From the NCBI GenBank assembly GCA_029547025.1, contig JAKPQA010000237.1, forward strand, positions 1 to 64,000: DNA of 64,000 bases, written 5' to 3'. The notes below the pieces were generated by a model. The model saw only the letters and a list, made by a program, of their open reading frames with translations, did not search any database and was not told the DNA's origin. This DNA is from Armatimonadota bacterium. GTDB lineage: Bacteria; Armatimonadota; Zipacnadia; UBA1398; JAKPQA01. Positions 50,453 through 53,404 of this stretch are shown here, in pieces (position 1 is the first letter of the stretch; each line of letters starts with the position of its first letter). The position numbers and the translations under genes are program-made.

Positions 50453-50896
50453 ATGCTCAAGACGTATGCATTCACGGCGATCGTCCTCGGTGTGGCTGCC
50501 GCGTGGACGGCCGGCTCCACGCCGGCATGGGCCCAACTTGTCCTCATGCCTCCGGACGCCAGCGACAACGTGCCGGCGGATAAGGACTCCGTGTGGGAGG
50601 TCATCGAGCTCAAGCACATCGGCGCCGGAAGCGTCGCCCAGATCCTCGGAGGCAGCGTCTTCAGCCTGAACTCTGACCTGATGCTGCTCGGCCGTCAGGG
50701 GACGCCTGGCCGCGGCGGCCGCTCGTGGAACAACGGAGGGTGGGGCAACGGCGGTTGGGGAGACAACGGCTGGGGCAACCGCGGCTGGGGAAATGGCGGC
50801 TGGGGCAACAACCGCTGGGGGAACAGCGGCTGGGGCGCCAACGGCTGGACCCAGAACGGATGGGGGCAAGGCGGATACGGCGGACGCGCCTGGTAG
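50453..50896 (+). CDS. Small secreted protein with secretin-N-like segment and tenfold W-G-N pentad repeat
   Basis: The 147-residue protein has a signal peptide (cleavage near PAWA, residue 27). A short segment WEVIELKHIGAGSVAQILGG (about 48-67) resembles the N0/N1 repeats of secretins. Residues 92-141 are ten consecutive five-residue units of the form W-G-N-x-G, giving a Trp every fifth position. Gly, Asn and Trp make up nearly all of this part. The DNA is ten degenerate 15-bp units (50726-50875). No family known to me has this layout. It stands alone on this strand apart from a small ORF 98 nt downstream. GGAG lies about 10 nt before ATG 50453. Confidence 0.75.
   Translation: MLKTYAFTAIVLGVAAAWTAGSTPAWAQLVLMPPDASDNVPADKDSVWEVIELKHIGAGSVAQILGGSVFSLNSDLMLLGRQGTPGRGGRSWNNGGWGNGGWGDNGWGNRGWGNGGWGNNRWGNSGWGANGWTQNGWGQGGYGGRAW
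50726..50875 (+). repeat. Ten tandem 15-bp units encoding W-G-N-x-G
   Basis: Ten in-frame 15-base units, each starting TGG or TAC-like and usually reading tggggcaacNNCgg. Third codon positions vary (GGC, GGG, GGA, GGT for Gly), so the repeat is kept at the protein level rather than by recent DNA duplication. Unit order by residue: WNNGG, WGNGG, WGDNG, WGNRG, WGNGG, WGNNR, WGNSG, WGANG, WTQNG, WGQGG. Confidence 0.85.
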
Positions 50897-51224: not shown

Positions 51225-52826
51225 TCAGGCGGGTCCTCCGCCTGACGCCATCTCGCGTGAGCGCGCCCGGCGCAGACCGAAGGTGAGGCTGTCGACCAAC
51301 GCCTCCCAGCTCGCCGCCAGGATGTCCTCCGATACCCCCACGGTTCCCCAGCTCTCGTGTCCGTCAGTGGTCTGGATCAGCACCCGGACTCGGGCGGAGG
51401 CCCCGGCCTCGCCGTTGAGCACGCGGACCTTGTAGTCGGTCAGGCGGATGTGCTCCAGTTCGGGGTAGAAGGGCACGAGCGCCTCCCGCAATGCCCGTGC
51501 CAGGGCATCCACCGGACCCGTGCCCTCTGCGGCCGTGTGGCGGACCTGGTCACCGACCCGGACGCGAATTGTCGCCTCCGTGTAAGTGTCTCCGGCCCCA
51601 TGCCGGCCATCGAGGACGCGATAGTTCTCCAGCACGAAAAACGGGTCGCGGGGCCGCAGAATCTGCTCGGCCAGAAGATGGAAAGAGCCCTCGGCGGCCT
51701 CGAACTCATACCCCTCATACTCCAGGTGCTTGAGGCGCTCCAGCAACCGACCCACCGCGGGGTCGCGCTTGTCGAGGTGGGGATAGGTCGTGTGAAGCTT
51801 CTCGATGATCGTTGCCGTTCCGGACTGCTCCGAGACCAGGATGCGACGCTCATTGCCCACGAGCTCGGGCGCGACGTGCTCGAACGACACGGTCTTCTTG
51901 CGCACAGCGTCGATGTGAGCCCCGCCCTTATGGGCGAAGGCGGAGTTGCCGACATACGGCTGGCGCTCGTCCGGGGCCTCCATGACCATCTCGGAGATGA
52001 AACGCGACACACTGCTCAGGTGCGTGAGCGCCTCTCGCGAGAGCGCAGGGATGCCCTGCTTCAGGACCAGGTTCGGGATGACGGAACAGAGGTTGGCGTT
52101 GCCGCAGCGCTCCCCGTAGCCGTTGATGGTGCCCTGCACTTGGCTGGCCCCCAGATGGACCGCCAGCGCCGCGTTGGCCACGGCACACCCTGCGTCATTG
52201 TGTGTGTGAATGCCCCATGGTACCGCGATGTGCTCGCGGACCTCACGAATCATCTGTTCGAGCTCGTGCGGGAGCGTGCCCCCGTTGGTGTCGCACAGCA
52301 CGACCCATGCGGCACCGCCGTCTTGGGCGGCCCTCAGCGTGGCGAGCGCATACGCGGGGTTGTGCTTGTAGCCGTCGAAGAAGTGCTCGGCATCGTACAC
52401 CACCTCGCGCCCGCGTTCGGCCAGATAGGCGACGGACGACCGGATCATCTCGAGGTTCTCGTCGAGACTGACGCGCAGGATCTCCTCAGCATGCAGATCC
52501 CAGCTCTTGCCAAAGATGGCCACAACGGTCGTCTCGGCCCCGAGCAGCGTCTGGAGGGTAGGATCTGTCTCGGGGCGATTGCCGCCGCGACGCGTACTGC
52601 CAAAGGCGCTCACCTTGGCGTGCTTGAGGTTCAGGGCGCCGACATGGCGGAAGAAGGCGACGTCCTTGGGGTTCGTGGGGTTCGGCCACCCGCCCTCGAT
52701 GTAGTGAATGCCCAGATCGTCGAGGCGCTGGGCGATGCGCAGCTTGTCCTGGAGCGATAGGGCAATGCCCTCGCCCTGACAGCCGTCGCGCAACGTCGTG
52801 TCGTAGATGCTCACGCTCTGGCCCAC
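51225..52826 (-). CDS. cimA: (R)-citramalate synthase
   Basis: The 533-residue enzyme condenses pyruvate and acetyl-CoA to citramalate, opening the threonine-independent route to isoleucine. It is a DRE-TIM metallolyase: IYDTTLRDGCQGEGI is the catalytic start, and GIHTHNDAGCAVANA with NGYGERCGNANL supply metal ligands. The C-terminal about 130 residues are the LeuA-type allosteric domain (feedback by isoleucine in the family). Length and opening separate it from isopropylmalate synthase, but a homocitrate/isopropylmalate relative cannot be fully excluded. GTG 52826 has GGAGGTG about 6 nt upstream. An isoleucine-type T-box precedes it, which strongly supports this function. Confidence 0.93.
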   Translation of the reverse strand: MGQSVSIYDTTLRDGCQGEGIALSLQDKLRIAQRLDDLGIHYIEGGWPNPTNPKDVAFFRHVGALNLKHAKVSAFGSTRRGGNRPETDPTLQTLLGAETTVVAIFGKSWDLHAEEILRVSLDENLEMIRSSVAYLAERGREVVYDAEHFFDGYKHNPAYALATLRAAQDGGAAWVVLCDTNGGTLPHELEQMIREVREHIAVPWGIHTHNDAGCAVANAALAVHLGASQVQGTINGYGERCGNANLCSVIPNLVLKQGIPALSREALTHLSSVSRFISEMVMEAPDERQPYVGNSAFAHKGGAHIDAVRKKTVSFEHVAPELVGNERRILVSEQSGTATIIEKLHTTYPHLDKRDPAVGRLLERLKHLEYEGYEFEAAEGSFHLLAEQILRPRDPFFVLENYRVLDGRHGAGDTYTEATIRVRVGDQVRHTAAEGTGPVDALARALREALVPFYPELEHIRLTDYKVRVLNGEAGASARVRVLIQTTDGHESWGTVGVSEDILAASWEALVDSLTFGLRRARSREMASGGGPA

Positions 52827-52868: not shown

Positions 52869-52898
52869 AAAAGTCCGTCTCCGTAGCCGGAGACGGAC
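52869..52898 (-). terminator. Rho-independent terminator of the cimA T-box
   Basis: A perfect 11-bp GC-rich stem with a 4-nt loop followed by four T on the minus strand. Its 5' side follows the T-box sequence directly, so antiterminator and terminator are mutually exclusive in the usual way. It ends 42 nt before the cimA start. Confidence 0.9.
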
Positions 52899-53160
52899 TG
52901 GTCGGTCCGCGGTACCACTCCGCTTCCGATGCGCAATGCACCGGCTCTCTACCGGCCACGGGCTTTGGCCCCACGGGCACCCGCCGATGGCCTGCCCCGC
53001 TAACGGTGGGCTTCCGGCAGCGTCTACTCGCCCACAACAGGGGCTTTCGGGCTGCAACTCGCGGGCGATCTTCGGCTGGGCACCGCTCCCGGGCTCGCAC
53101 CATCCCCGGTTCGCTGAAGCAGAACTCCCAGCGTACTGTTCCCGGTCGTCGTCTTTGTGG
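52869..53160 (-). promoter_or_regulatory. T-box riboswitch (isoleucine specifier) upstream of cimA
   Basis: Reading the minus strand, all T-box landmarks are in order. An AGUA element (53134-53137) faces the specifier loop. The stem I distal region has CAGCGAACCGGGGATGGTGC. The specifier loop GAAGATCGCCC (53063-53073) carries AUC, an isoleucine codon, at 53067-53069. The antiterminator T-box GAGTGGTACCGCGG (52907-52920) has a UGGU bulge able to pair with the ACCA end of uncharged tRNA-Ile. An 11-bp terminator stem (52873-52883 with 52888-52898, loop 52884-52887) ends in UUUU (52869-52872). Uncharged tRNA-Ile should favour the antiterminator and cimA expression. The 5' boundary is approximate. 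Confidence 0.93.
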
Positions 53161-53213
53161 GAACGGACTGGCTATGCAAGGAACAGGCGGCTGCACCGCG
53201 CTAGAGAGGCCGG

Positions 53214-53297
53214 TGCCGAGGAGGGGAGTCGAACCCCTACGAGGGAACCCTCACTGGACCCTGAACCCAGCGCGTCTGCCAGTTCCGCCACCTCGGC
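53214..53297 (-). tRNA. tRNA-Leu (anticodon CAG)
   Basis: A complete class II tRNA folds on the minus strand. The acceptor stem is GCCGAGG (53291-53297) with CCTCGGC (53215-53221), discriminator A at 53214. The anticodon stem-loop is CTGGG-TTCAGGG-TCCAG, giving anticodon CAG for CUG codons. A long variable arm (GAGGG/CCCTC) and T arm AGGGG-TTCGACT-CCCCT are present. The A73 discriminator and variable arm are the leucine identity marks. CCA is not encoded (CCG follows), so it must be added enzymatically. It lies about 55 nt upstream of the T-box on the same strand. Confidence 0.97.
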
Positions 53298-53316
53298 ACG
53301 CTCGACAGCGAAATGC

Positions 53317-53345
53317 ATGTTAGGCACTTCGGTGCCCCGTGTCAA
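53317..53345 (-). promoter_or_regulatory. Promoter of tRNA-Leu (and possibly of the cimA T-box transcript)
   Basis: On the minus strand TTGACA (53340-53345) and TAACAT (53317-53322) are separated by exactly 17 nt. The -35 is perfect and the -10 matches at four positions. Predicted start near 53310, about 13 nt before the mature tRNA 5' end, as is normal for tRNA promoters. No intrinsic terminator and no second promoter are seen between the tRNA and the T-box. Confidence 0.75.
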
Positions 53346-53375: not shown

Positions 53376-53404
53376 TTGACACCCCTGTGAGGCACCGGTA
53401 TACT
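53376..53404 (+). promoter_or_regulatory. Near-consensus promoter for secDF
   Basis: TTGACA (53376-53381), a 17-nt spacer and TATACT (53399-53404): the strongest sigma-70-type promoter seen in the window. It faces away from the tRNA-Leu promoter; the two -35 hexamers are 30 nt apart. Predicted start near 53411 gives a leader of about 259 nt before secD. Confidence 0.8.

Follow-up and report, generated by a model that had tools for sequence, protein, structure and literature searches.

A tRNA-Leu gene and the isoleucine T-box of cimA are probably fused into one operon in an Armatimonadota bacterium

In a stretch of 64,000 nucleotides from an Armatimonadota genome (hereafter the window), a gene for tRNA-Leu(CAG) lies closely ahead of an isoleucine T-box leader and the citramalate synthase gene cimA. 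We consider it likely that two transcription units have been fused at this point, the tRNA promoter driving both the T-box and cimA on one transcript. All the elements are in place, the leader has no detectable promoter of its own, no strong terminator follows the tRNA, and the same kind of layout recurs in other genomes. From these features we infer a single transcript, together with its processing and regulation.

Results

Layout of the locus

Read along the minus strand, the order is tRNA-Leu(CAG), a gap of 53 nt (53211-53159), the T-box and cimA (Table 1). A preliminary description of the locus had placed the leucine tRNA immediately upstream of an isoleucine T-box, and ARAGORN and Rfam recovered both. 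The genes secD and secF, identified with NCBIfam, occupy the plus strand and are divergent from the tRNA, T-box and cimA; a consensus scan of the region returned one promoter-like site before the tRNA and one before secD. The genome is a draft assembly of 369 contigs and no genome of the same family was among those compared, so the junction itself is seen once.

Citramalate synthase opens the pyruvate route to isoleucine. Its gene likely starts at a GTG codon at 52826, a start chosen from the sequence, with GGAGG upstream. Between cimA and ileS lies an ORF on the opposite strand (50453-50896, plus), and the two genes therefore need not form one operon. This ORF has a signal-peptide-like start and a tail of Trp/Gly/Asn-rich repeats, and a comparison with NCBIfam gave no match.

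Table 1. Features of the tRNA-Leu, T-box and cimA locus in window coordinates
Feature	Position	Strand	Evidence or remark
secDF divergent promoter, TTGACA-17-TATACT	53376..53404	+	flanks, outside the tRNA/T-box unit
Sigma-70-type promoter, TTGACA-17-TAACAT	53317..53345	-	-10 end 19 nt ahead of the tRNA
tRNA-Leu(CAG)	53212..53297	-	ARAGORN; Rfam RF00005, 47.7 bits
Weak hairpin with poor U-tract, CTGTTCCTTG	53187..53199	-	about -7.8 kcal/mol, 4 T in 8
T-box leader (Stem I, Stem II/IIAB region, Stem III, antiterminator)	52886..53158	-	Rfam RF00230
Specifier codon ATC (Ile), context GAA-G-ATC-G-CCC	53067..53069	-	alignment to RF00230
T-box terminator hairpin, 12 pairs, TTTTCCGTTT tail	52872..52899	-	5' arm also pairs in the antiterminator
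cimA, citramalate synthase	51225..52826	-	TIGR00977, 731.8 bits (cut-off 450)

The leader is an isoleucine T-box

The leader aligns to the full RF00230 model (positions 1-219, 81.4 bits, E 7.3e-18), below the curated Rfam cut-off of 93 bits for T-boxes; many T-boxes of relatives fall below it too, and of the 41 genomes searched among relatives only 29 exceed it with any match. The T-box sequence GAGUGGUACCGCGG is present. Pairing of the antiterminator is complete in both A1 (5/5, CGGAG/CTCCG) and A2 (6/6, GCGGAC/GTCCGT), as is that of the terminator (12/12), and the two structures share GTCCGTCTCCG and exclude each other, the 5' arm of the terminator alternatively completing the antiterminator. 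The strong terminator at the end of the leader is part of the T-box.

As first described, the T-box reads AUC: the codon falls at the specifier columns of Stem I and fits the isoleucine pathway of cimA. Because ATC is kept in an identical sequence context in all 27 of the cimA T-boxes (27/27), the isoleucine assignment is independent of any single sequence. A gene for tRNA-Ile(GAT) is found elsewhere in the genome. The anticodon CAG is unable to pair with AUC, and tRNA-Leu is not the ligand of this T-box.

The genome has a second T-box (L002, G000:C361:69681-69987), which precedes a leuA-like gene and has the promoter TTGACA-17-TATCAT for itself (score 14.6).

The promoter probably belongs to the tRNA

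The near-consensus promoter reported ahead of the tRNA withstood closer scoring. It reaches 10/12 against the consensus, where shuffles of the 1.2-kb region lead to an expectation of 0.1 such sites, and 13.6 by weight matrix. Similar promoters (TTGACN-17/18-TANNNT) stand before tRNA-Leu(CAG) genes elsewhere in the class, so that this one was probably the tRNA's own originally. The tRNA gene is single-copy, with one DNA match and one CAG anticodon found in the genome, and it does not encode CCA, the discriminator A being followed by CCG. Its minimum-energy fold in context is not a cloverleaf and keeps the acceptor stem intact; such folds are common for tRNA sequences and this one was disregarded as evidence.

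Of ten further tRNA-Leu(CAG) genes in the class, none is followed by a T-box, and in half of them (5/10) a strong terminator comes 30-44 nt after the gene. In most relatives the gene is located away from cimA; in two of them (G015 and G026) the distance is 2-4 kb and the tRNA is on the opposite strand. Arrival of the tRNA together with the neighbouring secDF was considered and discarded: secD is not adjacent to cimA in relatives, and in the same-order genome G001 it is about 40 kb away.

The missing T-box promoter is a feature of this locus

Outside the window's order, a T-box motif precedes cimA at 27/27 loci of the class (L036-L062), with similar spacing. Relatives were counted as usable when they had enough sequence upstream of the T-box, and each of these (25/25) has a sigma-70 promoter 4-41 nt before the cimA T-box, scoring 7.2-13.9 and mostly with an extended -10 (TGnTATAnT). 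In the window, no promoter-like site above chance was found in the gap by weight matrix and shuffles: the score is -0.9, under the median of 1.6 for shuffles of the same sequence, with an E. coli-type matrix and uniform background, an approximation that leaves room for a start by another sigma factor. The promoter and terminator scores in general are approximations made for this analysis. By these scores, the earlier statement that the gap has no second promoter is borne out. Since the cimA T-boxes of the relatives and the genome's second T-box keep their own promoters, the absence is, as judged by these scores, specific to this locus. Comparison of the same locus across related genomes, 25/25 with a T-box promoter and the window without, thus favours co-transcription.

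Simple adjacency of the tRNA and the T-box is the first alternative to be weighed, with the leader starting inside the tRNA gene or at a gap promoter unlike sigma-70 sites. Adjacency alone could be due to chance, and some gaps in the Bacillota loci described below have weak AT-rich boxes. We nevertheless regard this explanation as unlikely, for an obvious sigma-70 promoter stands at the cimA T-box in all usable relatives and at the genome's other T-box, and the window gap scores under its own shuffle median.

No tRNA was found in the cimA flanks (up to 1500 nt) of 29 relatives. A DNA pattern for the junction, consisting of a tRNA T-arm followed by the T-box motif at a set distance, retrieved the window alone from the class (46 genomes); across 151 genomes sampled from the phylum the window was the single true case, the other matches not being tRNA-like by their letters. 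Among loci of other phyla brought in by a CimA search, ARAGORN placed a tRNA ahead of cimA in L100 (Oryzomonas) alone, and no T-box motif was found there. Two genomes of the same order, G001 (L035) and G002 (L034), have cimA without a T-box, and no T-box match was found anywhere in either; these are the nearest relatives of the window compared, and the T-box seems to have been lost in them.

No strong terminator separates tRNA and T-box

The preliminary description had also held that the gap lacks an intrinsic terminator. This is correct for strong terminators and has to be amended for one weak hairpin (Table 1), placed roughly where strong ones stand after orthologous tRNA-Leu(CAG) genes. L199, L200, L176 and L190 have strong hairpins similarly spaced from the tRNA, and the orthologous terminators of these four loci and of L179 reach -11 to -15 kcal/mol, mostly with longer T-runs. 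The hairpin is possibly an eroded tRNA terminator, and it may end a share of the transcripts. By the same scan, many of the genome's tRNAs that stand last in their cluster have no clear terminator, so that its lack is nothing out of the ordinary in this genome.

The position of the hairpin gives some ground for a partial separation of the two units, in which it would stop a large share of the tRNA transcripts, a fraction would continue into the T-box, and this leakage would give weak expression of cimA. Its weakness, in both stem energy and T-run, compared with the orthologous terminators makes this quite improbable. Given that the T-box promoter of every usable relative is absent and that no strong tRNA terminator is left, transcription from the tRNA promoter is the most likely source of the cimA leader, and on this sequence evidence co-transcription with tRNA-Leu, as originally put forward, is the reading we favour.

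tRNA and T-box tandems recur in Bacillota

A pattern search of 399 sampled Bacillota genomes found tight tandems of a tRNA followed by a T-box, 22-33 nt apart, in 13 genomes (L252-L258, L261-L264, L266 and L282); the pattern takes in some distances and one spelling of the motif, and these counts are therefore lower bounds. Seven genomes (L252-L258) have tRNA-Pro(UGG), a Phe (UUC) T-box and a gene for a TlyA-family methyltransferase; five (L261-L264 and L282) have tRNA-Val(GAC), a Thr (ACC) T-box and thrS; and one has tRNA-Ala(GGC), a Leu (CUC) T-box and leuS. Gene identities were tested in one member per group and read by eye in the others. The TlyA profile match, at 182.8 bits, is just below the cut-off of 185.8, and the tRNA of L253, cut by the contig end and uncalled, closely matches the other tRNAs of its group. 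The rRNA methyltransferase gene tlyA is not a usual target for a T-box, and no mention of this combination came up in a brief search of open-licence literature.

Promoters before the tRNA are strong in the scored Bacillota loci (13.5-15.8). The tight gaps score 1.6-8.8, most of them without a convincing promoter; the AT-rich gaps of L261-L264, at 5.7-8.8, could hold weak ones. Looser layouts with both a terminator and a promoter in between were found in L259, L260, L270 and L272, and the first three of these have the order tRNA-Val(GAC), terminator, promoter, T-box, thrS. Judged by their sequences, the separated tRNA-Val/thrS loci look like the state before fusion and the tight ones like the state after it. 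The existence of four different tRNA/T-box pairs suggests that fusion arose independently at least four times, a number counted from the pairs.

These tandems also bear on the branched-chain-amino-acid coupling that had been proposed for the window, in which the leucine tRNA would be present so that the leucine and isoleucine pathways are tuned together. Although cimA serves isoleucine synthesis and leucine is a related amino acid, the T-box reads a codon that CAG cannot pair with, the tandems elsewhere combine Pro with Phe, Val with Thr and Ala with Leu, and in most relatives the tRNA is apart from cimA. Such coupling is very improbable and we abandon it. Because the Bacillota tandems join unrelated pairs, the Leu/Ile pairing looks accidental, with the shared promoter as the common factor.

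An assembly artefact, with two pieces of the genome misjoined at the tRNA, can virtually be dismissed: several contigs do end at tRNA genes (C183, C342, C150) and no same-family genome is at hand for comparison, but a single-copy tRNA is an unlikely place for a misjoin, the junction shows no shift in GC content, and other genomes have the same kind of layout.

Discussion

Fusion into a single operon is the most economical reading. All its parts are known ones, and a leucine signal is not required. The fusion would have originated by weakening or loss of the tRNA terminator and loss of the T-box promoter, through deletion or erosion. Mechanistically, transcription would begin at the tRNA-Leu(CAG) promoter, run through the tRNA and past a terminator that is weak or no longer active, and enter the isoleucine T-box. 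With sufficient charged tRNA-Ile, the T-box terminator would halt the polymerase and thereby end the tRNA precursor, while uncharged tRNA-Ile on the AUC specifier would favour the antiterminator, cimA then being a 3' extension of the same transcript. Either way, RNase P and 3' trailer enzymes would excise tRNA-Leu. The leucine tRNA would contribute its promoter and not a signal.

The preliminary description had suggested that tRNA processing releases the sensing RNA. Such release may take place; since the decision of a T-box is made during transcription, it would be unnecessary for sensing.

More broadly, and with somewhat less than even confidence, tRNA-led T-boxes can be proposed as a recurrent type of operon. 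In such operons the T-box would form the 3' trailer of a tRNA precursor, a strong tRNA promoter would feed the switch, the regulated terminator would double as the tRNA terminator and processing would set the 5' end of the leader, the whole arising repeatedly upon loss of the tRNA terminator and of the next promoter. A leader that is the physical tail of a tRNA precursor raises the questions of whether tRNA synthesis depends on the riboswitch terminator, and whether trimming of the tRNA destabilises or protects the leader. tRNA promoters are often growth-rate controlled, and could bring a second input, growth-rate or stringent, to amino-acid sensing and cimA. The apparent before and after versions of the tRNA-Val/thrS locus in Bacillota make the evolution of the fusion tractable.

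Comparison with known systems

In published descriptions, a T-box leader has a promoter to itself and reads a tRNA supplied in trans. In the open-licence papers searched we found no description of co-transcription of a tRNA with a T-box, and an earlier account elsewhere is possible. The window leader shares with transcription-attenuation T-boxes of the isoleucine class (RF00230) the AUC specifier, the conserved T-box sequence, the mutually exclusive antiterminator and terminator, and a biosynthesis gene downstream; it differs in having no detectable promoter of its own and a tRNA gene between promoter and leader. The cimA T-boxes of the class are the same in gene, specifier and leader architecture and similar in spacing to cimA, but each usable one has a separate promoter, and the cimA flanks examined contain no tRNA.

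Operons that join tRNAs and mRNA are known from E. coli, where thrU-tyrU-glyT-thrT-tufB has a shared promoter and the tRNA is cut from the precursor. The window likewise combines a tRNA and a protein gene with one promoter by sequence scoring, and adds between them a riboswitch with a regulated terminator, which would also end the tRNA precursor. In the Bacillota tandems, too, a tRNA stands closely before a T-box and a strong promoter before the tRNA; they differ in the identities of tRNA and T-box, in an encoded CCA and in a shorter gap.
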